Part shown: one piece after another, positions 6,543 through 36,888 of the stretch | How the letters are laid out: every line of letters begins with the position of its first letter | How positions within the stretch are numbered: position 1 is the stretch's first letter | IMG/VR virus record: IMGVR_UViG_3300020185_000077 | Coordinates: 1-47,362 of that record | Direction: 5' to 3' (one strand) | Length of the DNA stretch: 47,362 bases | DNA from: a virus | Notes under the pieces: generated by a model | Seen by the model: only the letters and a program-made list of their open reading frames with translations | What the model was told of the DNA's origin: nothing | Databases searched by the model: none | Translations under genes and position numbers: made by a program

Positions 6543-6547
6543 TAAAT

Positions 6548-8974: not shown

Positions 8975-9001
8975 AATTATTAATTATTATTATATTATAT
9001 T
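8975..9001 (+). promoter_or_regulatory. A/T-only translation leader before the scaffold gene
   Basis: The 27 bases between the portal stop and the scaffold ATG contain only A and T, in TTA/TAT steps ending TATTATATTATATT. The same ending precedes the gene at 11776. No Shine-Dalgarno sequence is present. An unstructured A/T leader is consistent with initiation in Bacteroidetes and with high expression of scaffold protein. Confidence 0.4.
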
Positions 9002-10165: not shown

Positions 10166-10185
10166 CAATTTAAAAAAAATTAATT

Positions 10186-18000: not shown

Positions 18001-21000
18001 GTCAAAGTGACACTAGTGATTATGCTAAGTACAGTTGTATAACTTGGTCTGGAGCTACTATTGGAGATACAAATTCGGCGGAGCAATCAAGTTGGAGTTA
18101 TCCACCTTTAAAAAAATGGCTTTCAGATCAAGATGGTTTAAATAATTATGACTCTATATACTATCAAAATGATTTAATATCAGAAAGTCCAAACCATATA
18201 ACTGCTGGTGATGATAATTTTAACGGCTTAAAAGTTGATGGTTGGGTTGGCGCTTTACAAAACGTAAGCAGAAACACACCTTTAACAGCAACCTCTTTAA
18301 ACAATAATCATATTAACGGTTTAGAAGGTATAGTCACAACGGTAGAAGATCATACAACAGGTCCTAGAAGATGGTTTAGTGGTATGAATGGTGTTGACAG
18401 CGGTGTTGGACAAGATACGAAAACCTATGCAAACGACGAAGAAGAAGGTAGACACTTTATGCATTTATCGTTTTTTGCTCCAGGTAAAGATTTGCACGAT
18501 GGAAGTTTTAGTACTCTTGGTACTCAATTAGAAAGAATATATGGACCTACGTCGTTCGCTGCTAACCTTCAAGGTATATGGGGTGGTGGTGTTTTTACAG
18601 GTGAAAATTCTAGTGATTTGTTTGGTACTGAAACAAATAATTTTAAACACTTTCCAATGGAAGGGAACCACGATGCTTCTTACAATTACATAGCGGAAAC
18701 TCCAGCTCCCGGTGTTGGTCAAGGTTATGATATGAATTATAGAGAGCTACATGAAAGACAATGGGACCCTACTTTTTTACATGATAGTGCTAATACTTTT
18801 ATTGGTGATCCTCAAAATGAGACTCGTGACTTTATTAGAAACTTATATCCAGGTTCTAAATTTAGATTTAAAAGACCTAAAAATCCTAATTCATCAGTTG
18901 TAGAAAAAACATTTAATGGTGTTTATACTATTAAAAAAGTACAAATAAAAAAACTATACAACCACACTTCTTGGAGAAAAGCATACAATAGATATGTTTC
19001 CGGCGAAGGTTATGACCCAACTACACTACCACATTTAGATTATAGAAGTGTTGAAGAAGTTGCTTTAGAATACTTAAACACCTTAGCTGATGATGGATCA
19101 GGTGGGGATGCTACTAACCTTAAGGCTAAAATACAAGACTTTGGAGCTTCTCACAATAGAAGACTTTGTTACATAATAGAGTTAGATAAAAACCCGGTAG
19201 ATTTTGATAGTCCACTTGGAAATCATTATGCTACTGGAGATATTGATAATCATAACTTTAACAACATAGAATTTTTAGATCCAATACAAGATTTATTATT
19301 ATCTGATTTAAGTAAGTTTCCAGCTGTCTGGGAACTTGATCCTAAAAAACAACAAACAGATTTAGATATATACTACGAAGCTAGTGACGCTATACCAATT
19401 AGAATAAACGAACAAACAAACGAGCTTTTTGCTCCAGTTGGCTGTAGAGTTGAGCTTATTAACCCACCTTGTGAACTACTTGCGTCAGATGTCTACCTAG
19501 AATATTGGGATGATAATATAGCTCACTTTAGTCCTGGTTTTGCAGCTCATGATGGTGCTAACGAAATAGATTACACTAATACATCTATTAAATTCATAAA
19601 ACAAGATGGTAGCTACGTTATAGCTGAAGCGGGTCAACAGCAGTTAATAGGTGGTAGTGCTGCTCAATCAGCTGTTTATAAAACAAATTTTATTGTAAAA
19701 AGAGAAATAGGTGGTGAAATAAAAACTGGTTTACCTTGGTATAATTGTTTTTCTTTTGGTAACGGCTTAGAGTCAAACAGAATTAAAGATGATTTTAACG
19801 AGGTATTTATCACCAACGGCGTGAAGGCATCTACAACAACGCAAGAAACATACAGAGAAGAAAGAAGAAAAAGTGGTTTAATCTATTCTGGTATATACAA
19901 CTCTAACTCTGGAGTAAACGATCTTAATCAGTTTATACAAGCTGAAAAAATAACTAAAGATTTAAACCCTACATACGGTAGTATTCAAAAGTTGTTTAGT
20001 AGAAACAGTGATTTAGTTGCTTTTTGTGAAGATAAAGTTTTAAAAATACTAGCAAATAAAGATGCTGTGTTTAATGCTGACGGAAACCCTCAACTAACAG
20101 CAAACCAAAATGTTTTAGGACAAACTATACCATTTGTAGGTGAATATGGCATATCTAAAAACCCAGAGTCTTTTGCGTCTGAATCATATAGAGCTTATTT
20201 TGCAGACAAACAAAGAGGCGCTATATTAAGACTTTCAAAAGATGGTTTAACTCCAATATCAAAAGCTGGAATGCATGATTGGTTTAGAGACAACCTACCT
20301 CAACATGAGTCTTTATTAGGAACATACGACGCATACAAAGAAGACTACAACATAACGCTTAATGATGTTTATACTGAAAACATTATATTTAACACTAACT
20401 TTGTTTTAGGTAGAGAAAGTGATGATTTTGATTTACAAAACAACGACTTGATTGAAGACGGTAACGTTTACGGTTCAACTGGAACTTATAAAACTTCTAT
20501 ACAAGATACAACCGTTGATTTCCCAAATAGTTCTAATTTTGACTGGGCTAATAGTAACGAGACTTTTTTAAGTAGCGTTACTGTTACTAACCATGACACG
20601 ATACCAAGAGAATATTTTCAAAATTTTATTCAACAGGAGAATGAAGTTACAGCTATAACTACAACCGCTGATGTTACAAATGAAGTTCCTTTTGTTGCGC
20701 CTAGCTACGCAGATTACAGCGGGCTTTATGATGGTGGTTGGTGGTACGATCCTGGTGGTGACGGTGGTTTTATGAGTGTTTCTGGTGATTTATTTGGTGC
20801 TAGCGCAACTATTAATGCGGATGCGCAAGCTACTAGTAATATAAGAAGAGCTGCTAGTGGAAATTTTATTACAGAAAGCAACAGCATAACTTACTCGGCA
20901 AAAACCCTTGGTTATACAACAAGTGATCCTTCTGTAGAAGATTACATAAGGTATTATACAGATAGCTCTAGCTCTACAGCCTTAAAAAGCCGTTTTTCAC

Positions 21001-24000
21001 AATGTGTTACTAGAAATAATGGTTCTGGATCTGGCGCTGACAACGCTATTGTTTTCGATAGACCAGAGTCTTCCGGAGCTTGGGTGGAGTTTCAAGCTAT
21101 AGGTGGAACTACAGATGGTCAATTAGATTTGTATATAAACGACGGCGGTATTGATTACAGTGGTGGAGGTTACGATGCTTTTTTTAATGGAGATGAACTA
21201 CACATACAACTTGAAGTGATGTGTTGGCCAACCTTTGATGGTACAACCGGAAGAGAAGCTCGATTTGGTTATAATTATATAATACCAAAATTAGAACTAA
21301 TTGACGGTAACACCGGCCAAGTTGTGGATGCAAATAAGTTTTGCCAACCTGTTTCAGGTGGTAGTGGTAACTTTGAACAGCTACAAACCACACATGATGA
21401 GATGGGGTCTGAATGGGAAGACATAACAGTAACTAATAGTGATAAATATATATACCCTACTAGTGTTACAAGTCCTAATTTCGTGTGCATAAAAGGTAGT
21501 TGTTCGCCTTCTGGAACAGTGTTATTTCCAGACACTAAACCAACTAATACAAATAGTAACTTTAATGTACCTGATCCTGGGACTTATATTTGGCAAAACA
21601 TGAATCCTCTTGCTAACTGGGATTCTTATAGTTCTAGCAATAAACAACCGGTAACACTTCGTCTTGGCGCAACTTTTAAATTTAGAGATCCAGCGCAGCA
21701 AAATTCTAATGGATCAGCAAACGGCACTATAGACACAGTTAACGCAGGTATTAGGGAGGTTAATGTGGTAGATAACCTTAGAATAAGAATAAGCAACCAC
21801 AGAGCTATTGCTAGTAGTGGTTATGATTACGAAACGGTAAGTGGTAGTGGTAACAAGCCTTTAAGGCACCCGCTATGGGAAGTACACAAGTTGTTTTGCA
21901 AAAAAGGATTTGGAGTTACTTCTACTAGTACTGCATTCGAGGATGAAATAGTTACTTATGACAACCCTTTAACAACAGGAACTTCAGAAACGTTGACTTT
22001 GTCTGAAATGCAAACTTTGTTTGGAGCTGATTTACTTATAGACAATAACACAACGCCACCTACTCTTACTGTTAATGGTACTTTAATACAACAAGCAGTA
22101 CCAGGTCAGCCTGCTATTCCAGATTACGAAATACCTTCTTGGGTAGAAGTTTCTCACGCCGGTCTTACAGACTGGCAGGTTGGAACAAGCGTTGGTACTG
22201 GTGGTGGTAATGGTGGTGGCTACACCCAATATCCTCAGGCAAAGTCGCCTAGTTGGTTTGGAGATCATAATTACGGTACTGATGTAACAGTTGATAGTTA
22301 TACTTGGAGAGAGCCTGTAAATGGCCCTACAACTGGTGGTGACGCTACTGGAGCTCAAACATATCCTTTTCAAACTATATCTCTTGGAAGCAACAACTTA
22401 ACAGCAGCGCCTTTAAACACTTTACCAGCTTCACCTGGTAGTTACAGCCCGCAATCACAAGTTTATACTGATATTGAAAATGGATATTGGTATTTTACAC
22501 ATAACACAGCTGGTAGTGGTAGGTCTCTCGCTATTCACCATGACATATCTTCAGGAGCTTATACTACTAATGATTGGTATCTTGTTGACGTTGAATTTGA
22601 ATATAATACTAGTACTTACAGCGAAAGCAGTGGCCCACCACCGCCAGGCACTGGTGTAACAACGCCTAATAAAGGTACTGTATATATACCTGGCGTTTTA
22701 GACACGGGTTCAACACCTCAACATTTAGATCTTATTGATCCTAATTATGTTGGTGAGTGGGGAGGTGGTAGTAATATGAGACACGTTCATTTAGTGCCTG
22801 TTTTTAGAAAAGAATATAGTGGTGATCGTTGGGTTTTAAGAGCTATATTTAAACCTCAAAGCAATAGTTATATAGATACCAATTCAAAAGAAAATTATTT
22901 TACATTAAGATTTTATGAGTTTGAAAACCAAGAAATTAAAGTACAAAAAATAATATCTAAAAAAATAAACGAATTAAGCCTTAGTGGTGACCCTACTAAA
23001 TGGGTGAGTAGTAGTGTTTATGGTAGAGAACACACTTTTTCAAACGGTGAATACTTTAACTTTAGTAGCTCAAGTTATGGACCAAAGTCCAATATGTATT
23101 TTAGTAACTCTGCGCTGTGTTGGGATAACGTTCCTAAAACAAATGCTAGTAGTAACGTTTCTTATTGGCTACAAAACCTTGTAGTTGCTCCAAATACAAC
23201 TTCAACTAACTGGAAACTTAACTTTAAAGTTATTGATAATCCTTATATAGGTGGTAGCAACTTTAGTGGAGAATTGCAAGTAAGAGTTACTAACACTACT
23301 CACGGTATGTTGGCCACCGGTATAAATGCTGTTGGAGATTACGAAATAGAGTTTAACATGGAAACTTCCACGTCAGATTGGGCAATAACACCTTCTGGCG
23401 CAACTCTAGCGTACTATGATGTTGCCGCAAATGGAAATGCAGATGAAATATCTTTTTCTAATTCACACGCAAGTGATCCTTTGACGTGTGCTGTTAGACA
23501 AATAGAACTTACTGATTTAACTAGAGTTTTTACTGGTAATACTACTGGTTCTTGGAACCTTGGTGGTTTTGAGCCTTCTCTCAAGCAATTTGTCCAATGG
23601 GACAACCAAGGTCAACCAGGTATTATAGGTAGAATACAGTTTGAAAACGCTCCCTTGTTTGATGATACTTTTGATGGTGTTAATCCAGTTATGATAAACC
23701 AATTAATAGAAACACCTATAAACAGACATGAGCAGTATAGAATACAATTTGTTTACAAAATAGAAAATATAGAAGGAGGTCCTGGCAGTGGCGAGCTAAC
23801 CATGTATTACTTTAATTCATTAGGTTATGGTTTTAGAATAACTAATATTGGTGGTGCGACTAGTTACAATGGTACCACGCTAAGTGGAGATGAGTTAACT
23901 TTTGACCAATTTTCTGGAGCGTATTCTGTAAACAAAGTCGTGACAATAGAAGAGTTAGAACAAACTGAAGTTGATGATATAAACGTTAAAGCTTTAAAAA

Positions 24001-24695
24001 ACACTTTAGTTATAAGAAAAGAAAATGAAAATGATCCACTATCTGAAGTTACAGCTTGGATAGATAATATATCTATGCAGCGGGTGTATAGCATAAACCC
24101 AGAGTTTCCTTCTACAACCGTTACTTTTAATGAAAATGTAAATGGTTGGTCTAGTTTTAAATCTTTTATACCAGAAAGTGGTTTAAGTTTATCAAAAAAA
24201 TACTTTACATTTAAAGACGCTTCTTTATACCAGCATTATATAGCAACTTTAGATGGTAACACATCAGATTTAGAACAAGCAAACAACTACAATGTTTTTT
24301 ATGGTATACCTTATAAGTCAACTATAAAAGCAGTTTTAAATCAAGAGCCTTCTGTAGTAAAAACTTTTCACACGGTTGGATACGAAGGAAGCCAAGCTAA
24401 CGTTTTACCACCAGACGCAAGTGGGGTTACTATAAATAACGCCAATGCTATAAGTGGAGAAATTAAAGGTTGGAAGTCTACTGACATAACCACAGACATG
24501 GACAAAGGTAGTTTACATAGTTTTATTAAAAAAGAAAACAAATGGTTTGGTTACATAAAAGGAAAACCATCTGATGTTTTGGATTCTTCTAAGTTTAGCG
24601 TTCAAGGTATTGGTTTTAGAAATAGCGATCCTACTGGTAGTGGTAGTGGTAGTGGTGGTGGTAGTGGTGGTAGTGGTGATGGTACATACGAATAA
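15063..24695 (+). CDS. Giant tail nozzle-like protein (3210 residues)
   Basis: The largest gene of the window. The N-terminus (FLKGKMNKDLDERLIPNGEY, RNALNVEVSTSEGSDVGTVQ) has the opening pattern of podovirus nozzle/tail tubular B-like proteins. A second conserved-looking block lies at about 1595-1735 (GIYNSNSGVNDLNQFIQAEK, VLKILANKDAVFNADGNPQL, YRAYFADKQRGAILRLSKDG), and a third at about 3015-3110 (VTFNENVNGWSSFKSFIPES, YFTFKDASLYQHY, VVKTFHTVGYEGS). Between them are long beta-rich stretches that look like inserted binding domains. T7 gp12 has 794 residues, so this is about fourfold larger. The C-terminus is a Gly/Ser linker. It may combine nozzle and host-contact roles. Confidence 0.7.
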   Translation: MPEIKNTFLKGKMNKDLDERLIPNGEYRNALNVEVSTSEGSDVGTVQNILGNHELAGDLIPDGYTCVGSIANEKTNKLYWFISSYSTDAIVEYDLENNQGNYAAVDAKSGTSKAFLKFFGNIITGINIIDNLLFWTDNRGEPKKINIDICKAGTTDITTTTKLSFKNGSFNGITADLISVDASTPAATNIGQYVYFEQKQMEALLGESLEEFIDASTGNVNEIRNFNHYRKGKFLGTKEVRIFQNNNGNHFRYNSNHTATDFELGDVFFNENLPLDIEESHITVIKPKPLNTFSVKINHAEQSLNTSKIPNLFETTFPRFSYRYRFTDGEHSAFAPFTQPVFNAKYPKDTSKSIDGSVSYTKDNAYDVKEPYNKAMANSIHSIELGGFITTHTPEDVEEIEILYKKEDSSVIYSIATINHIDKQWHYSSGNEEFITRVVGGVTGGRYIVTTENIYAALPANQLLRPWDNVPRKALAQEVSGSRIIYGNYLQNYEVPYLPTVSLNHDNRKNLNNSFDTGGLKSAKSQRNYQLGVVLTDKYGRETPVFTSNDGATNIPWQDSTGNNNASKSNQLVASVGYEFPEWVDTLKFFVKQTSNEYYNLIMQRAWVTKSTYELDNSEGHLWISFPSSDRNKISEEDYIILKKKIEPNASQVTFENKFKVVDIKNEAPDAIKYRLVNYGTAANNGSQTGNASDLFGEPNESLDFYDVTTKKGTDTLRLNHSEWQNLYNSVLEQQLAGENGAEGLNVKDLYVSWSRVSNSGDNMASKKYKVVGGFMGSSNYILKLNTHISKTDADIAHCFGDAATNTTVFNAGSYTDTADGLLDPLDGLHPNLVFQIQRKELIDSEDFSGSFFVKISKNQVSSIIETGNEVNELDKYKVLAKNGHWFFRDDIASGSNAYIYSAGGGPYGLTNYNGSFGTGGIGTDDDHQRNGSGYDNSTGDNGTMRVSDNSAVWSTILSSITTYSKYTRFFVDAVHMVAGQSDTSDYAKYSCITWSGATIGDTNSAEQSSWSYPPLKKWLSDQDGLNNYDSIYYQNDLISESPNHITAGDDNFNGLKVDGWVGALQNVSRNTPLTATSLNNNHINGLEGIVTTVEDHTTGPRRWFSGMNGVDSGVGQDTKTYANDEEEGRHFMHLSFFAPGKDLHDGSFSTLGTQLERIYGPTSFAANLQGIWGGGVFTGENSSDLFGTETNNFKHFPMEGNHDASYNYIAETPAPGVGQGYDMNYRELHERQWDPTFLHDSANTFIGDPQNETRDFIRNLYPGSKFRFKRPKNPNSSVVEKTFNGVYTIKKVQIKKLYNHTSWRKAYNRYVSGEGYDPTTLPHLDYRSVEEVALEYLNTLADDGSGGDATNLKAKIQDFGASHNRRLCYIIELDKNPVDFDSPLGNHYATGDIDNHNFNNIEFLDPIQDLLLSDLSKFPAVWELDPKKQQTDLDIYYEASDAIPIRINEQTNELFAPVGCRVELINPPCELLASDVYLEYWDDNIAHFSPGFAAHDGANEIDYTNTSIKFIKQDGSYVIAEAGQQQLIGGSAAQSAVYKTNFIVKREIGGEIKTGLPWYNCFSFGNGLESNRIKDDFNEVFITNGVKASTTTQETYREERRKSGLIYSGIYNSNSGVNDLNQFIQAEKITKDLNPTYGSIQKLFSRNSDLVAFCEDKVLKILANKDAVFNADGNPQLTANQNVLGQTIPFVGEYGISKNPESFASESYRAYFADKQRGAILRLSKDGLTPISKAGMHDWFRDNLPQHESLLGTYDAYKEDYNITLNDVYTENIIFNTNFVLGRESDDFDLQNNDLIEDGNVYGSTGTYKTSIQDTTVDFPNSSNFDWANSNETFLSSVTVTNHDTIPREYFQNFIQQENEVTAITTTADVTNEVPFVAPSYADYSGLYDGGWWYDPGGDGGFMSVSGDLFGASATINADAQATSNIRRAASGNFITESNSITYSAKTLGYTTSDPSVEDYIRYYTDSSSSTALKSRFSQCVTRNNGSGSGADNAIVFDRPESSGAWVEFQAIGGTTDGQLDLYINDGGIDYSGGGYDAFFNGDELHIQLEVMCWPTFDGTTGREARFGYNYIIPKLELIDGNTGQVVDANKFCQPVSGGSGNFEQLQTTHDEMGSEWEDITVTNSDKYIYPTSVTSPNFVCIKGSCSPSGTVLFPDTKPTNTNSNFNVPDPGTYIWQNMNPLANWDSYSSSNKQPVTLRLGATFKFRDPAQQNSNGSANGTIDTVNAGIREVNVVDNLRIRISNHRAIASSGYDYETVSGSGNKPLRHPLWEVHKLFCKKGFGVTSTSTAFEDEIVTYDNPLTTGTSETLTLSEMQTLFGADLLIDNNTTPPTLTVNGTLIQQAVPGQPAIPDYEIPSWVEVSHAGLTDWQVGTSVGTGGGNGGGYTQYPQAKSPSWFGDHNYGTDVTVDSYTWREPVNGPTTGGDATGAQTYPFQTISLGSNNLTAAPLNTLPASPGSYSPQSQVYTDIENGYWYFTHNTAGSGRSLAIHHDISSGAYTTNDWYLVDVEFEYNTSTYSESSGPPPPGTGVTTPNKGTVYIPGVLDTGSTPQHLDLIDPNYVGEWGGGSNMRHVHLVPVFRKEYSGDRWVLRAIFKPQSNSYIDTNSKENYFTLRFYEFENQEIKVQKIISKKINELSLSGDPTKWVSSSVYGREHTFSNGEYFNFSSSSYGPKSNMYFSNSALCWDNVPKTNASSNVSYWLQNLVVAPNTTSTNWKLNFKVIDNPYIGGSNFSGELQVRVTNTTHGMLATGINAVGDYEIEFNMETSTSDWAITPSGATLAYYDVAANGNADEISFSNSHASDPLTCAVRQIELTDLTRVFTGNTTGSWNLGGFEPSLKQFVQWDNQGQPGIIGRIQFENAPLFDDTFDGVNPVMINQLIETPINRHEQYRIQFVYKIENIEGGPGSGELTMYYFNSLGYGFRITNIGGATSYNGTTLSGDELTFDQFSGAYSVNKVVTIEELEQTEVDDINVKALKNTLVIRKENENDPLSEVTAWIDNISMQRVYSINPEFPSTTVTFNENVNGWSSFKSFIPESGLSLSKKYFTFKDASLYQHYIATLDGNTSDLEQANNYNVFYGIPYKSTIKAVLNQEPSVVKTFHTVGYEGSQANVLPPDASGVTINNANAISGEIKGWKSTDITTDMDKGSLHSFIKKENKWFGYIKGKPSDVLDSSKFSVQGIGFRNSDPTGSGSGSGGGSGGSGDGTYE
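24636..24683 (+). repeat. GGTAGT/GGTGGT microsatellite coding a Gly/Ser tail
   Basis: Forty-eight bases of GGT and AGT triplets, with one GAT, near the 3' end of the giant nozzle-like gene encode a Gly/Ser linker. Such a triplet run is prone to slippage in whole-codon steps, so tail length may vary between relatives without changing the frame. Confidence 0.8.
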
Positions 24696-24703
24696 TATAA
24701 CAA

Positions 24704-25900
24704 ATGAATAAAATAAACAGTTTTACAATAGATACATCTAACATGTCTGCTGACGCGGGTGAAAGAAAATTTCAAGTAAATGGATCTGTAGGTTCTAAAT
24801 TTTTAATCGTAGCGCTTCAAGATGCTACTCAAAAATATTATAATTTTTCTAGCCAAGCTTTTGAAGACGGTCATGACGCTACTAAAAACCTTGTTATTAC
24901 TATGAGTAAAAGTGTTTATAGAAATAATTTTTCTATACCAGCGGGTGGTGGTGATTTTGTTATTAAACTAATACCTTTAGAAGACACTATTATTAACGGT
25001 GGCAAATCTAACGCTCTAACTAGAAAAATATCAAAAACAGCTAGTAATACAACTTTAACATTTCAACCAAACTCTGATGCTTTAAACGCTGGTAGTGACC
25101 CTTGGTACGACACGTTTCCTACGTTTATCTCTGTTGGGTTTGGAAACATAGAAAATACAACCTCATTTTCTTTAACAATAGATAATCTTGTTAGCGATCA
25201 AAGTGGTTATGGATTTATAGTTCAAGCCGCAGCTCAAGACATAACTGAAGATTTCTTTTTTTATAGCGTAACTGACACTGTTGATGGTGCTACTAGCTCT
25301 TCAACTACTGTTGTTGTTAATGATCTAACAGGTATAGTTGTTGGAACAAAAATATATGGTGTTAGCAGCGGAAGCTTAAGTGGTAATCCATCTATAACAA
25401 ACATTGACACTGCCACTAAAACTTTAACTCTTAGTGCAGCTCAGTCGTTCGCTGACGGTATAACTTTAACGTTTAGATCTTATGGTAAGGCTAATATTAA
25501 AAGCGCTTTAGGTTTAAACTTTTCTGTTGTTAGAAGTCCAATAACAACTTTTAATAGCGTGTCACAAGTTGTGAGAGCCGACTCAAGCGGATCGTCAACA
25601 AACGTAGCTATTTTAAATACTTTTGGTATTGGAGCTGGTTCTACTGTTTCTGGCTTAAGGGGTGGTGGCGTAACAACAGTAAGCAGTATTACAACAGCAG
25701 ACGCAGCGGGAGATAGCAATAATGGCGTTATAGTTATATCTGCGGCTTCAATAACAGCTAAAGGACAAATTTTGTCATTTAGTAAAATGAGCACGCAAGC
25801 TGTTATATCTGGCTCTATTGTCGTTTCAGAATATCCAAGTGCAAACGCAGATATAAAGCTTGATATAGATAAATTTATAAATATAGGAACTTCATCATAA
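24704..25900 (+). CDS. Beta-rich virion structural protein
   Basis: A 398-residue Ser/Thr/Val-rich protein, very poor in Cys and Trp, as in extended beta fibres or tail decoration. The N-terminal 110 residues form one unit (INSFTIDTSNMSADAGERKF, FSIPAGGGDFVIKLIPLED). Residues about 195-260 and 285-350 look like two repeats of one small beta unit, each with TTVVVNDLTGIVVGTKIYGV or TNVAILNTFGIGAGSTVSGL followed by an S-I-T-x(n)-T-L/I stretch. A similar unit appears in the protein at 2225. It lies directly downstream of the nozzle-like gene and is probably a tail appendage. Confidence 0.65.
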   Translation: MNKINSFTIDTSNMSADAGERKFQVNGSVGSKFLIVALQDATQKYYNFSSQAFEDGHDATKNLVITMSKSVYRNNFSIPAGGGDFVIKLIPLEDTIINGGKSNALTRKISKTASNTTLTFQPNSDALNAGSDPWYDTFPTFISVGFGNIENTTSFSLTIDNLVSDQSGYGFIVQAAAQDITEDFFFYSVTDTVDGATSSSTTVVVNDLTGIVVGTKIYGVSSGSLSGNPSITNIDTATKTLTLSAAQSFADGITLTFRSYGKANIKSALGLNFSVVRSPITTFNSVSQVVRADSSGSSTNVAILNTFGIGAGSTVSGLRGGGVTTVSSITTADAAGDSNNGVIVISAASITAKGQILSFSKMSTQAVISGSIVVSEYPSANADIKLDIDKFINIGTSS

Positions 25901-26730: not shown

Positions 26731-27621
26731 ATGGGAGATTTTTTTGGTAAAAAAAGCAAAAGAAAGCAAACCGCTACTATGAATGAAATGAACGCTATGA
26801 TTCAAGGGCAGGTTGATGAAGCTGCTGGTTTTAGAGAAACCGCTCAACAAACGGCAGACCAAAGTAGAGCTGACTACGCTAATTTTCAGTTTACAAATCC
26901 TTTTGGCGGCGCACAAAACACTTACGCTGGCGCTCAAAATGCTTATGCTGGGTTGCAAAATCAATTTTCTGGCTTAGAAAATAAGTATGAAGGTATGGAA
27001 AACCGTTTTGAAGATATGACGGTTGATATGCGTGCTGCAGATTTTCAAGTACAACAAGGGCAACAGCAGAGAGCAAATATACTACAAGGTTTAAGGGGTT
27101 CCGCTGGAAGCTCTGGTGTGGCTGGTTTAGCACAATCGTTAGCAAACGCAGGTTCTATGCAAGCGCAACAGATATCAGCAGGTATTTCACAACAAGAAAG
27201 ACAAAACGCGATGATGTCCGCTAAAGAGGGCGCTAGAATAGATCAACTACAAAGAGGCGCTGGTATGCAACTACAACAACAACAAGCGGCTGGTGCGCAA
27301 CAACTACAAGGCCAACAAGCAGCTGGCGCTATGGCGGTTCAACAAATGCAAATGGCTGGTGCTGATAAACAACAGCAAATGATGATGCAAGGAGCAGCTG
27401 ATGTTCAAGCGGCTCAAGCAGCGCAGCAATCAACGTTATTAGGCATGGATTACGCAGCTTTAGCTGGTGCAAATCAATCTTACCAACAGTCTTTGGCTAA
27501 TCAAATGTCTGGTATGGGTATGAAAGCAGATATGTACGGAGCACAGTCTCAAAACAATATGTTCAGCACTTTAGTAGATGCTGCTGCAACTTATGCTGGC
27601 GCTGGTGGCTTTTCAGTATAA
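26731..27621 (+). CDS. Internal virion (ejection) protein A, Gln/Ala-rich
   Basis: A 296-residue protein very rich in Gln, Ala, Met and Gly, predicted mainly helical. Residues 58-99 form six heptads of pattern F/Y-x-G/D-x-Q/E-N-x. Then comes a conserved-looking helix pair (QQQRANILQGLRGSAGSSGV, AGLAQSLANAGSMQAQQISA, about 109-150), a long Gln-rich region (about 170-235) and a small hydrophobic end. Its size and place before two larger internal proteins recall T7 gp14, which is ejected and helps form a channel through the envelope. The role is inferred from composition and order. Confidence 0.6.
   Translation: MGDFFGKKSKRKQTATMNEMNAMIQGQVDEAAGFRETAQQTADQSRADYANFQFTNPFGGAQNTYAGAQNAYAGLQNQFSGLENKYEGMENRFEDMTVDMRAADFQVQQGQQQRANILQGLRGSAGSSGVAGLAQSLANAGSMQAQQISAGISQQERQNAMMSAKEGARIDQLQRGAGMQLQQQQAAGAQQLQGQQAAGAMAVQQMQMAGADKQQQMMMQGAADVQAAQAAQQSTLLGMDYAALAGANQSYQQSLANQMSGMGMKADMYGAQSQNNMFSTLVDAAATYAGAGGFSV
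26902..27027 (+). repeat. Six tandem 7-codon repeats in ejection protein A
   Basis: Six consecutive 21-base units encode residues 58-99. Each unit starts with Phe or Tyr; Gly is at position 3 in the first five, Gln/Glu at position 5 and Asn at position 6. Examples are YAGAQNA, YAGLQNQ, FSGLENK and YEGMENR. The units drift from uncharged (GAQN) to charged (GMEN, EDM) along the array. The heptad period suits a coiled coil or helical bundle with an aromatic seam. Confidence 0.75.
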
Positions 27622-27644: not shown

Positions 27645-29540
27645 ATGGCGAGTAAATTAAATCCAGGAGCAGATTCAACGTTAGTAAACGTAGCTTATAG
27701 AGCCGCGATGGCTGATACACCTGCGGATTATAGTAAGACGTTTGAAAACATGGCTGATAGCTACGAAAAAACAATGCAAGCTTCTAGTGATATGTGGGGT
27801 AATGTAGCTAAAGTTGGAGCTGCCATTGGTGGCGAAATGATGAAAAACGCACAAGAGCTTACAGACATGGTTGCCAAGGGCGCTACTCTAAATCCAACTG
27901 ACGCGGAAATGTTTACCAACGAGATATACGGTATTAAAGACGAGTTAAGTTCGTTAGGTATGTTTAGCGGTCAGTTTGGCAATAGAGAAACTAGATTGAA
28001 AAGAGCTGAACTTAAAATAAAACAACAAGAGCTATTTGCAGACATCGACAATGCCGTAGCAAATCTTAAGGTTGGGGCTGATGCTGTTGCTGCTGGTACT
28101 TTTGACGCTAATTTAGCTATGGGTGATGGAGAAATGGTAAACGCTATTATTAAAAGTAACTTGAAAAACAATGTTACAGACAATAAAAACATAGCTAGAC
28201 TAAGTCGTGATGAAGATACTGGTGAGTTAATGTACACGTTATACGATGTTGAAAACAATCCTGATGGAGAAGTTTTAATGGGTGATGATGGTAAACCGCG
28301 TACAATGACTATTAAGCAATTTAACGAAAGTATAGCAACCAATGTTAAAGATGGTGGCGTTATGATGAAATCTTTTGTTGATCTTAGAGAGGCAGAGGCT
28401 AAAGCTGGTAATGGGGCTTTAAACGGCACATATGATCCTGAAAGAAAACAAATGATGTTAAATAATTTAGATCTTTTACTAGGAGACAAACCTGTTAATT
28501 TAAAAAGAGCAATGAGAACTCCAGTGGGTTATTCAAACACGTCTTTATACGATGATTTAATTAGTAAGAGCGTTCTATCAGCTGAATTATATGGCGCGTT
28601 AAATAAGGTGTCAGGAAATGAAAATGGAGAGCTTACTGGTGGCGTGGTTGATGGTATTGAAGATGTTGATGGTAGTGGAGGTATAAGTGCAAGTGAAATA
28701 AATTATGACGTTTTAGTTGGTAATATAACTGGATTAAAAGACGCTGAAGTTAGTAAAGAATTTTTTAAACAATATGCGGTTAAACAAATGGAGGCTGCGT
28801 ATGAATATGGGTATAGCAAAAAACCAATTGTACCTGGCAGTGGACCAGATGGTAGTGGTTTTAGTCTACTTAAAGGTTCAGGAAAAAGTGAAATTGGTGC
28901 TGATGATGGTAATGGCTATATTCCAAACTCCGCTTTAAATACTATTGGTAAAAAAGCTCACAACAGAGATGATATAAACATAGGTGCAAATAATTTTATT
29001 TGGGACAAAGAGGAAAAAGTTTATAAAATTAAAGGCGTTGAAGTTCCAAACAAGCTTGCTTTGTTTGATGCAATATATGGTAGTGGGTTTGATCCAAAAA
29101 ATATATTAAGCATGTACAACAGTATTGAAGACTGGCAAGGTGACACGAGACTGGAAGGCACTTTTGACGAAAAATCTGGTCTTAGTATAAGCGTTTTAGA
29201 ACAAGATGATAACCTTGTTGCTACAAAGTTAAACGAATCAATAGCTAAGGTTAGAACAGAACAAAACCCAGAAGGTTATCATTTTGATATAACTAAAAAT
29301 ATATTTGGTGTTGGTGACTTTGTGAACGATGCCGTTGTTTTGTTAGATAAAAATAACGATCCAGTAGAATTTCCAGAAGGACATGAGTTTGCTGGACAAC
29401 AAGCTTCTTTTTACGTAGATCAAGACAATGAAGGAGACAAACAAGCCTCGTTTGACTACTTAATGGAAATACTAGAGCATTTCAATTTAAAAACTGAGAA
29501 AAAAGAATTAACAGCAGCGGATTACGCGGCGGGAAAATAA
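27645..29540 (+). CDS. Internal virion (ejection) protein B with EF-hand-like loop
   Basis: A 631-residue, acidic, mostly helical protein without signal or membrane segments. The N-terminal 150 residues are Ala/Met/Lys-rich helices. Residues 340-351 read D-V-D-G-S-G-G-I-S-A-S-E, a textbook EF-hand calcium loop, followed by INYDVLVG. The C-terminal part is mixed alpha/beta and ends LTAADYAAGK. It lies between ejection protein A and the giant polyvalent protein, the order of a T7-like gp14-gp15-gp16 set. It is probably an internal core or ejected protein; calcium binding is a motif-based inference. Confidence 0.6.
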   Translation: MASKLNPGADSTLVNVAYRAAMADTPADYSKTFENMADSYEKTMQASSDMWGNVAKVGAAIGGEMMKNAQELTDMVAKGATLNPTDAEMFTNEIYGIKDELSSLGMFSGQFGNRETRLKRAELKIKQQELFADIDNAVANLKVGADAVAAGTFDANLAMGDGEMVNAIIKSNLKNNVTDNKNIARLSRDEDTGELMYTLYDVENNPDGEVLMGDDGKPRTMTIKQFNESIATNVKDGGVMMKSFVDLREAEAKAGNGALNGTYDPERKQMMLNNLDLLLGDKPVNLKRAMRTPVGYSNTSLYDDLISKSVLSAELYGALNKVSGNENGELTGGVVDGIEDVDGSGGISASEINYDVLVGNITGLKDAEVSKEFFKQYAVKQMEAAYEYGYSKKPIVPGSGPDGSGFSLLKGSGKSEIGADDGNGYIPNSALNTIGKKAHNRDDINIGANNFIWDKEEKVYKIKGVEVPNKLALFDAIYGSGFDPKNILSMYNSIEDWQGDTRLEGTFDEKSGLSISVLEQDDNLVATKLNESIAKVRTEQNPEGYHFDITKNIFGVGDFVNDAVVLLDKNNDPVEFPEGHEFAGQQASFYVDQDNEGDKQASFDYLMEILEHFNLKTEKKELTAADYAAGK

Positions 29541-29550
29541 TATCATACAT

Positions 29551-32500
29551 ATGAAAGAATTAGAATCTATAGTTCAGCGCATGATGGATGCTGGAGAGTC
29601 GGAAAGTAAGATTAGAGAAGCTGTTCGTATTTACAAACAAAATCAAAAGGGAAAAGCAAAAGACTCGACGGTAGATCCGACGATGAGTCAAAACGATATG
29701 GGATCAGAATTGGACGATGGTTCATCGGAATCAGTAAGTTGGTTTGATCAAACTTGGTTTGGCCGAGGTGTAGCTGCAGCTAGTACAACTGGTGAAGCTA
29801 CAGACTTAATGGCTCAAGACTTTTCTAATATAGACATGAAAAGTATACAAGAGTTTATGAAGGCCAAAGAAAGTGAAGCTAAGACACATGTTCCATCTGA
29901 ACGTATGGAAAAGTTTCAAAAAAAATATAAAGAAGAAGGTAGTACTTGGTCTGCATTTTTTAGAGGTGTAAAAGATCAACCAGGTTTATTACCAGAATTA
30001 TTCGTGCAATCTTTAGGTACTCAAGTTGGTACTTTAATTGATTCCCCTGGGGCTTCTTTAGCCGCTGCTGGAACTGGAGCTGCTGGTGGTGCTATGGTTG
30101 GTGCGGTACCTGGTGCTGTTGCTGGTTTCATGGGTGGTCTAGCGACATCGATGGAAGCTGCGTTAACTTTTGGTGAGTTATTAGAAACTGAACTTAAAGA
30201 AGAAGGTAAGGAATTTACAGACGAAAATATTAAGGCATTATTAGAAGGACCAAAAGGAAACTCTATAAGAAATAGAGCTATTGGTAGAGGTTTAACTATT
30301 GGTGCTGTGGAAGGATTGTCTGGTGGTGTCGCTGGTAAAGCAGCTGTTGCCACCAGAAAAGCTGTTGCTACCGTTAAAGGTGCTAAAACCACTGCTATTG
30401 CAACTGGTGCCGCTGGTGTGGCTGTCGAGGGTGTTGGTGGTGGTGTTGGTGAGGTCTTAGGTAGAGTTGTAGCTGATCAAGAAATGGATGCTGCTGAAAT
30501 TGGTTTTGAAGCTATAACCGGAACTACAACCGCTCCAATTAATATATTAACCGCTTTAAAATCTGCAAAACAACCTACGTATAATCTTAATGGTGTCGAT
30601 GTTACATATAAAGAAATGAAAGACTTTGTTGAAACGGCTGATGACATTGATGTAGCTAAAGCTAAGATTAAAATAGAAGACGATTTTACTGGTGTCGGTA
30701 CATTAGCTGCTAAAAAGCAAAACAAAGCTATAGTAGATTCTCAAATTGACGACAAGATAACAGATAAAAAAGATAGAGATACATTAATAGAACTTAACGA
30801 CAAAAGAATCGAGGCAGAGGCTAACGTTAAGAAGAAAGGTATTGACAAAGTTCCAAACGCGCCTGAGGAGTTAGCTACAATACAAGCTGAAATCGATGCT
30901 ATCATAGGTAAGTATGAAGGTGCTATGGGTATTGGTGAAACACAAAAAGCTCAAGACGTTGCTAAAGTTGTAAGAGAAAACAGGATATCAGATACTATCG
31001 CATTTGCAGAAACTCAAGGTCAAAGAATTGGTAAACAAACTATTGTTGTTGACAACAACGAGCAAGCTCAAGCTGCTCATGATAAGATAGCCAAAGAAAT
31101 GGGTCTTAAAGCACAGGATGTTACTGACGCTGATGGGTTTATAGTTGGTGATTCTATTATTATTAATAAGGATGTGGCTGGTAGAACTGGTGCTATTAAC
31201 GTTGGTGCTCACGAGGTACTACACGGTGTTTTAGCTAAACACATGCAAAGCCTGGATAATACAGGTAAGAAGAAATTAATATCTAGCTTTAAAAAAGTAT
31301 TGAGCAAAAATCAACTAGCTGCTGTTACTAAAAGATTAGAAGATAACTATAGTGATGTTAAAGGTTTTGATATTGAAACTACAGAAGAGTGGTTTACAGC
31401 TTTCTCCGATGCTATAGAACAAAATGAAATAGCTTTTGATGAAGGTGTTTTTGGTAAAATCAAAAATACAATACAAGAAATATTAAGAAAGTTTGGTATT
31501 AAAAAAGACTTTGCTGATGGTAGGCAGGCTTACAACTTCTTAAAAGACTATAGTAAAAGTATTAAAAATAATAAGTTAAGTTCTAGAGCAATGGCTTTGG
31601 CTGGTGAAGGTGCAACTGTTATCGATGCTAAAATGTCTGTGTCGGAAGCGAAGGTTATATCTGATGATGCTAAAAGAGCTTCAAAAACAATAGATGATAT
31701 AGGTAAGAAGGCTACTACAAAAGCAGAGTATGATGCTGGTGTAAATTTAGAAGCTTACGACTACTTGATAGACAAAAAAGGTTTAGACGGTTTAATCCTA
31801 GCTCAGTTAATGCAAAACAACGTAGATATAAAAGCTGAAGACGCTAATGTTAACGGAGTCCCATTAGACGACTACATGGAAGATGTTAGAACAAAACTAC
31901 TACCTGACGTGCTAGGTTTTAACCCTGAAATGGAGGTTACTAAAGAGGGTAAGTTTGGTCTGTCTGGATATATAAACCAACGTCTTATATTTAGAATGGG
32001 TACCGTTGCTACTAAAGCTAAGAAAACAGTTACAGGTAGATCACTAGAAAAACCTGTTGGTACAACTGGAAAAACTATAGCAGACACTATTGAGGGTGAA
32101 GTGGATCAAAGAACAAAAGACTTTGAAGAGCAAGACATGTCTATAGCTGCTCAAAAAAAGAGAAAAGAAGAAATAAGAATAACCGAGAAAAGTAAAGCTA
32201 TAAGAAAACATGGAGTAACGGCTCAAGATATTGAAAATATAAAAAATGATGTCGCCGAAGGTTTAGTTAATCCAAAACTTCCTAGAATAGATGAGTTCGA
32301 GTGGACACAAGCGTTTAGAGACAAAGTGGCTAACAAAAAAAGCCCGCTATTTAAGAAAATTCAAAAGTTAGTTGGAACTGGAGATAAATTTGCTCAAACG
32401 CTAAAAGATACTAGAAAAGTAATGTTCGGTAAAGAAGGTTTGCCAACGTCTGATTTAGTTCAAATGGAGAAGATGGAAAAAGAAAAGATCTTTGCCGAGC

Positions 32501-35500
32501 TAGATTATAGAGCTACTAATCAAGAGTTAATAGATGAGGCTGTGGAAAAAGGTTTAATCAAAACTTTTGAAGCTAAAACAGAAAAACAAGGACCTGCGAT
32601 ATATGATAGAAAGTATCCTAGTGAAAAAGAATTATTGAATTTCTTTGGAAAATACCAAACTAAAATGGTAAAAGGTAAGGAAGCTAAAGTATATGTTCCG
32701 CACAGAGGTAGAAGAGAATCTTATATAATTAATATCTCTAATTTCTTTGCTCAAGACGCTGTAGCTGACGTGTTAGAAAACAAACCGAAAGTATACGACA
32801 CTGTAGTTAAAAATAACGCCGAAAAAGGTTTTCCTAGCAGTAAAAACCCTATAAGCGTTATTAAACAGAGAATAGATAGAAATATGGACGTTATGTTTAG
32901 CAAAAGCTTTGGTGAAGCTGAGGTTACTCATAAAATGATTTTTAGTAGAGGTTTAGATAAATTTAATAAAAATCTTATAAAAAATAAATTTAACGTTAGA
33001 AAAGCTTTTGAAGAAACTTATCCAAAAAGATTATTTGTAAAAGGTAGAAGTGAAAAGTTGAGGAATGAGATAATACAAGATCTTGAAAAGTACGTTGGTT
33101 GGTACGAAAAACAAAGTGGCACGGAAGTAAAACCAGAGTTAACGCTAACAGATTATATAGAATTAGAACTTAGCTCTCCAGAGCTAACCGTTAAGGATCT
33201 TAGGCAAGCTTACGGTTTGAGTAAAAAAGATATTAATTTTTCTAATATAGACCAAATTGTTTCAGCTAGAGTTGCTTTGTTAAAAATAATGCAACATCCT
33301 AAAATGGGTAAAACTAGGGTTATTAGATTTATGAAAAATCTAACAGAACCAACTCAACTCGGTAATACCGATGCTATAGCGTTGTCCGTTGATCAAGTTA
33401 GCGAAACGGGTAAGCTACAGAAGAAGATAGATAGGCTGAAAGCTAAAAACAATTTAACCACAAACGAAAAGAAAAAATTAAAAAAATATCAATCTACTAA
33501 TTACAAAAGAAGACCGGGTTACGGGATATTAGAGGATACAGCAGATTTCAACGAGAACTTCGTGGCGCGGCTAACCGATGACGCTGTTGAGATTAGAGGT
33601 AGAAATGCCCAAACACCTTCTTTAATCGTAAACAAAAAGGGAATTGATAAGGCTAAGTATAGTGAGTTAGAGAAAAATGCTGAGGTTGAGGCTGACTTTT
33701 TAATAGATTTAATGGGTGTAATGCGTGAATTGAGAGATGATAATGTTATATCAACCAACGACGCTGCTATGATTCAAATGACTCTGAGTAGCGGTATGAA
33801 CACCTCTTTAGCCGCGGCCGCAAAGCCTAGATATATTCCTTACGTTGGTAAGGACCAAATGTATACAGGTAAGATGAGGTGGGAACACATGATACCTAGA
33901 GTTATAATTTCTTTATATTTAGCTGAGTATCAAAATGGAAAAATATCTAAAAAGGATATTAAGTTTTTGTTAGACAACTTCCACGTAGCAGCACTCCCAA
34001 TGCATCTTGATGTGTTAGTTACTGAGGTTGGTTATCAAGCCAAAATGCACGCTGGGTGGGGTTTGTTTGATACAGATGGAAACCTAAGCCTGTTAACTGT
34101 AAACGATATAAGAAGGTACATAAACATGAGAACTTTTGGTAAGTGGGACATACCTTTGTTTGACTTGAAAGAACAAAAAATAGAACCAAAGTCTTTGGTT
34201 TTCGCTGAAAAAGGTGGTGTTTATAACCCCGAAAAAATACAAGCAAGAAAAACAATGGTTAAAGCCGTTCAAATGTCTCGATCTACTCAAAAAGAATCTA
34301 AAGGTATTACAGTCTTAGATTTTGACGATACATTGGCTACGAGTAAATCTTTAGTTATATCTACATCACCTGACGGTGTTGTTAGAAAGCTAACAGCTGA
34401 AGAGTTTGCTACTGAAGGCGCTGATTTACTAGATCAAGGTTGGGTGCATGATTTCTCAGAGTTTAGTAAAGTTGTAGACGGTAAAGTTGCTTCTTTATTT
34501 AAGAAAGCAATGAAATTGCAAGGTAAGTTTGGTCCTGAAAATATGTTTGTATTAACAGCGAGACCTGCTGATTCTGCTCCAGCTATATTTGAATTTTTAA
34601 AAGCTAATGGGTTGAATATACCACTAAAGAATATTACTGGTTTAGCTAATTCTACATCAGAAGCTAAAGCACTTTGGATTGCTGATAAGGTTGGTGAAGG
34701 TTATAATGACTTTTATTTCGCAGATGATGCTTTGCAAAACGTACAAGCTGTTAAAAACATGTTAGATCAATTCGATGTTAAGTCTAAGGTTCAACAAGCT
34801 AGAGTTAAGTTTAGTAAATCAATGAATGATCAGTTTAATGATATACTAGAAAACGTTACAGGTATTGAAGCTAACAAAAGATTTTCTATTATTAAAGGTA
34901 GAAAACGTGGTGAAGGTAAAGGTAAGTTTAGAGTGTTTATACCGCCGTCACACGAAGATTTTGTAGGCTTGTTATACAACTTTTTAGGTAAAGGTAAAGA
35001 AGGTAATGCTCATAGAGACTTTTTTGAACAAGCTTTAATTAGACCTTTAAATAGAGCTAACAGAGAGTTTGACACAGCTAGACAAAGCGTTGCTAATGAT
35101 TATAAAGAGTTAAACAAGCAATTTGAAGATGTAAGAAAAAAGCTTACTAAGAAAACCGCTGATGGTGATTTTACTTTTCAAGACGCTATAAGAGTATACC
35201 TATGGGATAAACATGGTCATAAAATTCCTGGATTAAGTGAGACTGATCAAATAAAATTAGTTGAGTTAGTAGCGTCCGATCCACAGCTACAGGCTTACGC
35301 TGAAACTTTAAACGTTATTTCTAAGCAAGAAACTTATGTTAATCCAACTGACGGTTGGAATAGCGGTGATATAAGAATGGATCTAGATGATGCCACGGGT
35401 AGAATAGGTAGAAAACAATTCTTTGCTGAATTCATTGAAAATGCTGATATTATATTTTCTGAAGAAAACTTAAATAAGATAGAAGCTGGTTACGGTAAAG

Positions 35501-36888
35501 GTGTTAGAGAGTCTTTAGAAGACATGTTATATAGAATAGAAACTGGTAGAAACAGGCCAACTGGACAAAATGAGCAGGTTAACAAGCTTATGAACTATCT
35601 AAACGGATCTGTTGGTACGGTGATGTTTTTTAATATGAGATCTGCGTTACTTCAGCAAATGTCTATTGTTAATTACATTAACTTTGCTGATAATAATATT
35701 TTTGCAGCAGCTAAAGCTTTTGCAAATCAAAAACAATATTGGAAAGATTTTGCGTTTATATTTAACTCTGACATGTTAAAGCAAAGAAGAGGTGGTATAC
35801 AGACAGATGTTAATGGCGCTGAACTAGCTGCTAGTTTACGTAACTCTAAAGATATAACTAGAAAATTAATATCTAAATTGTTAGAGTTAGGGTTTTTACC
35901 TACGCAAATTGGTGATAACATTGCGATTGCAACAGGTGGCGCTGCTTATTATAGAAATAGAATAAACAAGTATGTAAAACAAGGTATGTCTCAAAAAGAA
36001 GCTGAAGCAGCTGCTTTTACAGATTTTCAAGATATAACTCAGTCTACTCAGCAGTCAGCAAGGCCTGACATGGTTTCTAAGCAACAAGCATCTGTTATTG
36101 GTAAAGTTATATTAAACTTCCAAAACGTTACCTCTCAGTTCAATAGATTAGGTAAGAAAGCTTTTCAAGATATATATAACAGAAGAATAACAAAACCTAA
36201 CTCTACCCAAATGCAGAGCGATATATCTAACGCCGCTAGAATAACGTATTACTTTGCTATTCAAAACGCTATATTCTATACATTACAAACAGCTTTGTTT
36301 GCTATGATGTTTGATGATGACGAAGAAGATAATAACAAGTTGTTTTTAAAGAAAAAAGAAAGATTAATAAATGGTAGTATTGATTCTGTATTAAGAGGAT
36401 CTGGTTTGATTGGTGGTGTGGTTGCTACTTTAAAAAACGTAGCTATTGCTTTTGCTAGACAAAGAGATGCTAAGTATAATCCAGATGAAAGTGCGGTTTT
36501 ACTAGAAGCGCTAAACTTATCACCCGTACTAGGTATTAAAGGTAGAAAAATAACTAACGCTGAAAAAACTCTTAACTACAATAAAAAAGTTATAGATGAA
36601 ATGGAAACTTTTGATATAGATAATCCTCAGTGGTCATCTGCTACAAATTACACAGAAGCGCTTACAAATATACCTTTAAATAGGTTGTATAATAAAACGC
36701 AAAACGTTAGGCAAGCTTTAAACAACGATCACTCAGCTTGGGAAAGATCTTTAATGTTTTTAGGTTGGAGTCAGTATAATCTTGATCTTGAAAACAAGAA
36801 AATGGAAGAGATTAAAGAAAAAACTAAAAGTAAAAAGAAAAAGAAAAAAAATACTAACTCAAGAGATATGAAAGTTATAGTTAGATAG
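29551..36888 (+). CDS. Giant polyvalent ejection protein with zincin-like and HAD-phosphatase motifs
   Basis: A 2445-residue protein. Gly/Ala-rich hydrophobic stretches at about 165-205 and 245-310 look able to enter membranes. H554-E555-V-L-H558 in INVGAHEVLHGVL is a zinc metallopeptidase motif, with an acidic helix (EEWFTAFSDAI) downstream. A HAD unit lies at about 1585-1740: D1590-F-D1592-D-T1594, T1669 in VLTARP, K1706 and D1725-D1726, which gives all four HAD motifs. Residues 2230-2255 are hydrophobic, and the end is very Lys-rich. The order and size match large polyvalent proteins that phages inject with DNA. It may cut the host wall or proteins and modify a phosphorylated substrate during entry. 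Confidence 0.65.
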   Translation: MKELESIVQRMMDAGESESKIREAVRIYKQNQKGKAKDSTVDPTMSQNDMGSELDDGSSESVSWFDQTWFGRGVAAASTTGEATDLMAQDFSNIDMKSIQEFMKAKESEAKTHVPSERMEKFQKKYKEEGSTWSAFFRGVKDQPGLLPELFVQSLGTQVGTLIDSPGASLAAAGTGAAGGAMVGAVPGAVAGFMGGLATSMEAALTFGELLETELKEEGKEFTDENIKALLEGPKGNSIRNRAIGRGLTIGAVEGLSGGVAGKAAVATRKAVATVKGAKTTAIATGAAGVAVEGVGGGVGEVLGRVVADQEMDAAEIGFEAITGTTTAPINILTALKSAKQPTYNLNGVDVTYKEMKDFVETADDIDVAKAKIKIEDDFTGVGTLAAKKQNKAIVDSQIDDKITDKKDRDTLIELNDKRIEAEANVKKKGIDKVPNAPEELATIQAEIDAIIGKYEGAMGIGETQKAQDVAKVVRENRISDTIAFAETQGQRIGKQTIVVDNNEQAQAAHDKIAKEMGLKAQDVTDADGFIVGDSIIINKDVAGRTGAINVGAHEVLHGVLAKHMQSLDNTGKKKLISSFKKVLSKNQLAAVTKRLEDNYSDVKGFDIETTEEWFTAFSDAIEQNEIAFDEGVFGKIKNTIQEILRKFGIKKDFADGRQAYNFLKDYSKSIKNNKLSSRAMALAGEGATVIDAKMSVSEAKVISDDAKRASKTIDDIGKKATTKAEYDAGVNLEAYDYLIDKKGLDGLILAQLMQNNVDIKAEDANVNGVPLDDYMEDVRTKLLPDVLGFNPEMEVTKEGKFGLSGYINQRLIFRMGTVATKAKKTVTGRSLEKPVGTTGKTIADTIEGEVDQRTKDFEEQDMSIAAQKKRKEEIRITEKSKAIRKHGVTAQDIENIKNDVAEGLVNPKLPRIDEFEWTQAFRDKVANKKSPLFKKIQKLVGTGDKFAQTLKDTRKVMFGKEGLPTSDLVQMEKMEKEKIFAELDYRATNQELIDEAVEKGLIKTFEAKTEKQGPAIYDRKYPSEKELLNFFGKYQTKMVKGKEAKVYVPHRGRRESYIINISNFFAQDAVADVLENKPKVYDTVVKNNAEKGFPSSKNPISVIKQRIDRNMDVMFSKSFGEAEVTHKMIFSRGLDKFNKNLIKNKFNVRKAFEETYPKRLFVKGRSEKLRNEIIQDLEKYVGWYEKQSGTEVKPELTLTDYIELELSSPELTVKDLRQAYGLSKKDINFSNIDQIVSARVALLKIMQHPKMGKTRVIRFMKNLTEPTQLGNTDAIALSVDQVSETGKLQKKIDRLKAKNNLTTNEKKKLKKYQSTNYKRRPGYGILEDTADFNENFVARLTDDAVEIRGRNAQTPSLIVNKKGIDKAKYSELEKNAEVEADFLIDLMGVMRELRDDNVISTNDAAMIQMTLSSGMNTSLAAAAKPRYIPYVGKDQMYTGKMRWEHMIPRVIISLYLAEYQNGKISKKDIKFLLDNFHVAALPMHLDVLVTEVGYQAKMHAGWGLFDTDGNLSLLTVNDIRRYINMRTFGKWDIPLFDLKEQKIEPKSLVFAEKGGVYNPEKIQARKTMVKAVQMSRSTQKESKGITVLDFDDTLATSKSLVISTSPDGVVRKLTAEEFATEGADLLDQGWVHDFSEFSKVVDGKVASLFKKAMKLQGKFGPENMFVLTARPADSAPAIFEFLKANGLNIPLKNITGLANSTSEAKALWIADKVGEGYNDFYFADDALQNVQAVKNMLDQFDVKSKVQQARVKFSKSMNDQFNDILENVTGIEANKRFSIIKGRKRGEGKGKFRVFIPPSHEDFVGLLYNFLGKGKEGNAHRDFFEQALIRPLNRANREFDTARQSVANDYKELNKQFEDVRKKLTKKTADGDFTFQDAIRVYLWDKHGHKIPGLSETDQIKLVELVASDPQLQAYAETLNVISKQETYVNPTDGWNSGDIRMDLDDATGRIGRKQFFAEFIENADIIFSEENLNKIEAGYGKGVRESLEDMLYRIETGRNRPTGQNEQVNKLMNYLNGSVGTVMFFNMRSALLQQMSIVNYINFADNNIFAAAKAFANQKQYWKDFAFIFNSDMLKQRRGGIQTDVNGAELAASLRNSKDITRKLISKLLELGFLPTQIGDNIAIATGGAAYYRNRINKYVKQGMSQKEAEAAAFTDFQDITQSTQQSARPDMVSKQQASVIGKVILNFQNVTSQFNRLGKKAFQDIYNRRITKPNSTQMQSDISNAARITYYFAIQNAIFYTLQTALFAMMFDDDEEDNNKLFLKKKERLINGSIDSVLRGSGLIGGVVATLKNVAIAFARQRDAKYNPDESAVLLEALNLSPVLGIKGRKITNAEKTLNYNKKVIDEMETFDIDNPQWSSATNYTEALTNIPLNRLYNKTQNVRQALNNDHSAWERSLMFLGWSQYNLDLENKKMEEIKEKTKSKKKKKKNTNSRDMKVIVR

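Follow-up and report, generated by a model that had tools for sequence, protein, structure and literature searches.

The window analysed here is a stretch of 47,362 nucleotides of viral DNA (IMGVR_UViG_3300020185_000077), in which a block of late virion genes holds the gene for a giant protein. The genes are ordered as terminase, portal, capsid slot, ring-type, muzzle-like, small ORFs, 631-aa, 2445-aa, further ORFs and tail fibre (Table 1), and the virion structural protein matching phrog_13704 occupies the usual slot of the major capsid protein. Judged by its terminase and portal, the phage has its kin among the Flavobacteriia phages elemo, phi38:1, phi19:3 and Gundel; these sequences ally it with the podoviruses phi38:1 of Cellulophaga and elemo of Flavobacterium, with the crAss-like phages more distant. 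A scan of genome contigs for the giant-protein family returned two MAG contigs only, one of just 6.6 kb, and the phage host is therefore uncertain. Inspected by eye, most start codons of the ORFs between 15063 and 43182 have no clear purine-rich ribosome-binding site upstream, a situation common in Bacteroidetes. An ORF at the position of the 631-aa gene is free of Cys in 36 of the 40 relatives listed, and no homologue of the 631-aa or the 296-aa protein was found among cultured phages. Further downstream, and in contrast to its Cys-free neighbours, a 733-aa ORF (39330-41531) is rich in Cys, with 38 of them (52 per 1000), and it has no Pfam or PHROG match.

Table 1. Genes of the late block and features of the giant protein, with their positions in the window.
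Feature	Positions	Strand	Remarks
Large terminase, portal, 387-aa ORF, virion structural protein	4329..11703	+	phrog_6681 (terminase), phrog_6547 (portal), phrog_13704
3210-aa muzzle-like tail protein	15063..24695	+	Pfam crAss_MUZ_C, E 1.3e-7; phrog_14478 (virion structural), E 1.1e-122
398-aa Cys-free protein, 3' of the muzzle-like gene	24704..25900	+	
296-aa protein, probable small ejection/cargo protein	26731..27621	+	0 Cys, 30% G+A; upstream of giant
631-aa protein, probable ejection/cargo partner	27645..29540	+	0 Cys; directly upstream of giant
Giant Cys-free polyvalent/ejection protein, 2445 aa	29551..36888	+	no internal stop; relatives in 245 IMG/VR stretches
Gly/Ala-rich hydrophobic region, residues ~160-345	30028..30585	+	36% G+A vs 16% overall
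Zincin-like domain, residues ~470-651	30958..31503	+	HEVLH 31210-31224; E613, candidate third ligand, 31387-31389
Segment resembling sigma-70 domain 2 (tentative), residues ~695-825	31633..32025	+	VIA-align, profiles
Region exchanged between relatives, residues 700-1574	31648..34272	+	identity at background in most relatives
HAD domain, residues 1575-1760	34273..34830	+	motif I 34318-34332; T1669 34555; K1706 34666; D1725-D1726 34723-34728
All-helical C-terminal domain, conserved, ending in a Lys-rich tail, residues 1760-2445	34828..36885	+	model helical

The giant gene had been picked out in a preliminary description as a single frame joining zincin-like and HAD-phosphatase motifs. The frame does translate into 2445 residues free of stops, and HEVLH (554-558) and the HAD residues D1590, D1592, T1594, T1669, K1706, D1725 and D1726 all lie where that description placed them. 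Shuffling the protein 2000 times yielded the full HAD motif set once and HExxH 22 times; we take the motifs as real because they are conserved in relatives, which is a stronger test than shuffling. The relatives were collected by an IMG/VR profile search, and 80 loci were retained, with 73 full-length members; an HMM found the HAD domain in 72 of the 73, its catalytic motifs being intact in every case that allowed a match, and HExxH is likewise present in 72. The family layout consists of a variable N-terminus, the HExxH domain, an exchanged region, the HAD domain and a helical C-terminus. The latter, about 690 aa long and conserved, is 70-98% identical in most relatives, and its BFVD matches are other large polyvalent phage proteins. 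A more distant relative, L016, has kept the C-terminus and is missing the HAD. Residues 73-404 match phrog_32588, and Lys makes up 10.4% of the whole chain. The preliminary description had the motifs flanked by hydrophobic Gly/Ala-rich and Lys-rich regions: both a Gly/Ala-rich stretch and a Lys-rich tail exist, but neither borders the HAD directly, its immediate neighbours being the exchanged middle region and the helical C-terminus. Searching cultured phages by tblastn with the whole protein, its N-terminus or its middle gave no direct homologue, and the C-terminal part gave weak matches only, with E of 0.01 or worse. The LPD38 C-terminal domain (PF18857) had no match in the giant, in a search in which the controls were also silent.

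Three features had no place in the preliminary description: the absence of Cys, the exchanged middle and a sigma-like segment. The first concerns the whole chain. The giant protein has no Cys, although the remaining proteins of the window contain 5.2 per 1000 once a single Cys-rich ORF is set aside, a rate at which 12.7 would be expected (Poisson P(0) 3e-6). As many as 60 of the 73 full-length relatives also contain none, their total being 50 Cys in 191,543 aa, and all 81 family sequences together hold 52. Most of these Cys belong to a C-terminal extension of about 60 aa found in seven members (L028, L032, L035, L046, L051, L052 and L094), each with six Cys in zinc-finger-like spacing. Most of the remainder lie in a conserved WCL motif module (PWCLCAR in several), which is the sole source of Cys in L019, L040, L076, L081, L086 and L088. 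A link between the absence of Cys and passage through the tail has been proposed (PMC3915230). Among proteins used for calibration, the N4 virion RNA polymerase (vRNAP) has no Cys in 3500 residues, T7 gp15 none in 747 and T7 gp16 none in 1318, while the cargo giants of crAss001 have 0.4-1.2 per 1000 (gp47, one in 2341). The other virion proteins of N4 and T7 in this comparison mostly contain 2.6-13 per 1000; the N4 major capsid protein is an exception, also without Cys (0 of 401).

The slot of the gene points in the same direction. Phages phi38:1 (gp101), elemo (gp18), phi19:3 (gp129) and Gundel (gp74) carry in this slot giants that are annotated as structural and contain no Cys, and these show N-terminal homology to some family members (E 1e-15 to 1e-7); the N-terminal family HMM matches elemo gp18 at 3.7e-25. 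Unlike the window protein, they have no HAD motif, and most of their chain is unrelated to it. No detection of phi38:1 gp101 in virions was found in PMC13288928, where the phi38:1 virion proteins listed as methylated are GroEL and the major capsid protein only. The cultured-phage collection we searched contains no HAD-bearing member. Cysteine exclusion, gene slot and homology to the annotated structural giants, all of them indirect signs, make it very likely that the giant is a virion protein ejected into the host. One might instead suppose a late enzyme of assembly or scaffolding that stays in the producing cell, where its HAD and zincin would serve virion maturation. The late position of the gene would suit such a role, and the conserved C-terminus could be structural, but Cys exclusion is what the giant shares with the proven ejected proteins N4 vRNAP and T7 gp15 and gp16, and it is not seen in the T7 portal, tail and fibre proteins or the N4 portal, sheath and appendage proteins, so that we regard this role as very improbable.

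Known ejection systems offer several likenesses to an ejected giant. The N4 vRNAP (gp50, Schitoviridae) is also a giant free of Cys, adjoins small Cys-free virion proteins, and possesses an HExxH domain as well as a large helical domain at its C-terminus (PMC12633501). The window giant, by contrast, has no recognised RNA polymerase domain, with no match to RNA polymerase families in the general Pfam and PHROG scans, and carries the HAD and exchanged modules instead. T7 gp16 and its partners gp14-gp15 are likewise late proteins ejected with the DNA, of which gp15 and gp16 are Cys-free, and the endolysin domain of gp16 recalls an N-terminal lysozyme domain in one member of the giant family. The window protein is nearly twice as large as gp16 and has a zincin and a HAD, and no sequence homology between the two was detected. 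In crAss001, the cargo genes gp45-gp47, gp49 and gp50 are located 3' of the muzzle gene and encode large, nearly Cys-free proteins; the crAss001 giants differ in being associated with RNA polymerase, and none was seen to match the window giant in sequence.

Four residues of the zincin-like domain, H554, E555, H558 and E613, are invariant among 49 aligned N-terminal regions, and E613, a Glu downstream of HExxH, is the candidate third zinc ligand. Residues 470-651 are predicted with high pLDDT, and their best fold matches are zincin catalytic domains, at a Z of only 6.0 and a Foldseek E of 0.15. The zincin of polyvalent proteins has been discussed as a self-processing enzyme or as one active after injection (PMC5512222).

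The middle of the chain behaves differently, since local homology to parts of the exchanged region is confined to 3-33 relatives. At its start, residues 695-825 gave VIA-align rows to many sigma factors, with Z up to 5.6, and a sigma factor was the single match of a PDB profile search, at a weak E of 0.5. Comparison by hhalign lent weak support (P 0.005-0.011 vs 0.16-0.74 in controls), and a Pfam scan of the segment gave no sigma match. The segment HMM is present in 35 of the 73 relatives. We consider the chances even that these residues form a domain resembling sigma-factor domain 2. Other relatives carry other modules. At L079 (5162-8044), a locus placed by motif search, the N-terminal region matches Phage_lysozyme (Pfam E 1.1e-14), and at L037 (10034-10603) one of the 68 HADs scanned has ART-PolyVal (PF18760, E 0.002) at the cap site, the match being assigned to L037 from a reading of its insert. 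The notion of several enzyme-type domains within one chain of the polyvalent type is thus borne out: a zincin-like domain and a HAD in the window protein, to which relatives add ART-PolyVal, a kinase and a lysozyme.

The HAD unit was described as catalytically intact, and the relatives reveal a strong constraint on it. The 68 aligned HADs show no variation at D1590, F1591, D1592 or T1594 and at least 90% conservation at the remaining catalytic positions. By pattern search, 79 sequences have motifs I and IV, and 70 of these have motifs II and III as well; the misses are at least partly the fault of the pattern, since L066, which was missed, has both. In an AlphaFold model of residues 1575-2445 the region takes a Rossmannoid HAD topology (pLDDT about 60-80). 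Its top VIA-align match is the 3'-phosphatase of T4 Pnkp (Z 9.2, 117 aligned residues), followed by Nir2 and KimA at Z 8.2-8.6 within a long series of HAD phosphatases running from Z 9.2 to 6, rows to be read with the caveat that for neither model did Foldseek alone find a PDB match at E below 0.001. The whole chain gave no match in a Pfam scan, the HAD becoming visible only when scanned alone: at E up to 1, DUF2608 was matched by 64 of the 68 HADs (best 4.8e-6) and HAD PF12710 by 23 (best 3.4e-4). We conclude that the domain is, with high probability, an active Mg-dependent phosphatase.

What such a phosphatase might act on is suggested by its nearest matches. At E up to 0.01, 41 of the 68 HADs match PHROG 415 (best 6.8e-7; window protein 0.0067), and the phosphatase domain of T4 PseT matches the same profile at 3e-24, over the range that it has in common with the HADs. 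Aligned by hhalign with PseT alone, the HAD shared only motif I, and searching PDB sequences with that of the HAD as a profile gave nothing significant, although rows 2 and 3 of the 4 were Pnkp. The HAD is diverged and far from T4 PseT, whose Z of 9.2 is only modestly above the rows of Nir2 and KimA.

Some relatives carry a P-loop kinase between motif I and motif II (L047, L054, L061, L062, L066, L086 and L087), detected by a nested-kinase HMM in 6 of the 73 full-length relatives; the window protein has none. A kinase nested within a HAD cap is, to our knowledge, unusual, and no description of it was found in the literature searched. The kinase matches Pfam Zeta_toxin at 5.7e-13, slightly better than AAA_33, and the PseT kinase domain with an hhalign P of 3.3e-7, while its best PDB sequence match is PezT. 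The zeta-like side of this kinship invites a different reading, in which HAD and kinase would act on UDP-sugar precursors and weaken the wall locally at entry. Such a role has been proposed for zeta-like kinases in polyvalent proteins (Iyer et al., PMC5512222), and one viral relative is annotated as a UDP-N-acetylglucosamine kinase. Nevertheless, the kinase accompanies so small a share of a family in which the HAD is nearly universal, and the HAD has no match here to a sugar-specific family, that we hold an action on the wall to be improbable.

The preliminary description had the HAD dephosphorylate a host nucleotide, lipid or protein on entry; this can be taken as a guess only, and the nearest matches favour nucleic-acid ends. 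Its substrate could still come from the host, be it a lipid, a protein or a small molecule, for instance a sugar phosphate or a nucleotide that serves as an alarm signal, as HAD phosphatases are mostly small-molecule enzymes and Nir2/lipin-type, phosphoserine and acid phosphatases appear among the fold rows. The HAD cap in the window is also short, with about 76 residues from motif I to II, so that larger substrates could be accommodated. Polynucleotide phosphatases, however, provide the best single matches, and we find a host substrate possible but less likely. Based on the Pnkp fold match, the PHROG 415 profile common with PseT and the PseT/zeta-like kinase of some relatives, we prefer nucleic-acid ends, with a confidence that stops somewhat short of even. 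The likeness to T4 PseT (Pnkp) extends to the HAD fold, the DxDxT motif, PHROG 415 and the match of the relatives' nested kinase to the PseT kinase; PseT differs as a free enzyme of 301 aa with an N-terminal kinase, whereas the window HAD is embedded in a giant chain and the relatives' kinase, where present, sits inside the HAD cap. T4 PseT and RNA ligase repair tRNA cleaved by a host defence nuclease (T4 PseT record note). It counts against the PseT-like reading that only one of 20 related contigs had an RNA-ligase match (L104 in G002, 61462-61956; E 2.9e-7, under the curated cut-off), and RtcB was found in none of these contigs, which are fragments.

The giant may thus be pictured as a cargo/ejection protein, the largest of the internal proteins in a podovirus of marine Bacteroidetes type. 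Stored in the virion, it would pass largely unfolded via portal and tail and refold in the host. During entry or afterwards, the zincin would cut either its own chain or some protein of the host; the helical C-terminus would anchor and package the chain, and the middle region would supply exchangeable effector modules. The HAD would be enzymatically active, a Mg-dependent phosphatase like the 3'-phosphatase of T4 PseT/Pnkp, and would heal nucleic-acid ends in the first minutes of infection, either in nicked phage DNA or in RNA cut by a host defence system. Taken as a whole, this proposal of an ejected cargo giant with a zincin, exchangeable effectors and an end-healing HAD is plausible, at slightly worse than an even chance.

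Polyvalent and ejection proteins are a known class, to which the HAD-bearing giant adds a new form. It resembles the polyvalent proteins of Iyer et al. 2017 (PMC5512222) in its zincin hub, in the ART and zeta-like kinase modules of its relatives and in predicted injection; it differs in its HAD, as the words "phosphatase" and "haloacid" are absent from the main text of that paper. The near-absence of Cys over 73 giants provides a simple sequence mark for proteins that pass the tail, and the exchanged middle is a place to seek entry effectors in uncultured marine phages. A PseT-like 3'-phosphatase, joined in some relatives by a 5'-kinase, may even be delivered together with the genome and a sigma-like domain, an unlikely combination on present evidence. 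If true, end repair and the recruitment of host RNA polymerase would precede all phage gene expression, and a virion-borne version of PseT, acting at time zero, would represent a new counter-defence layout.
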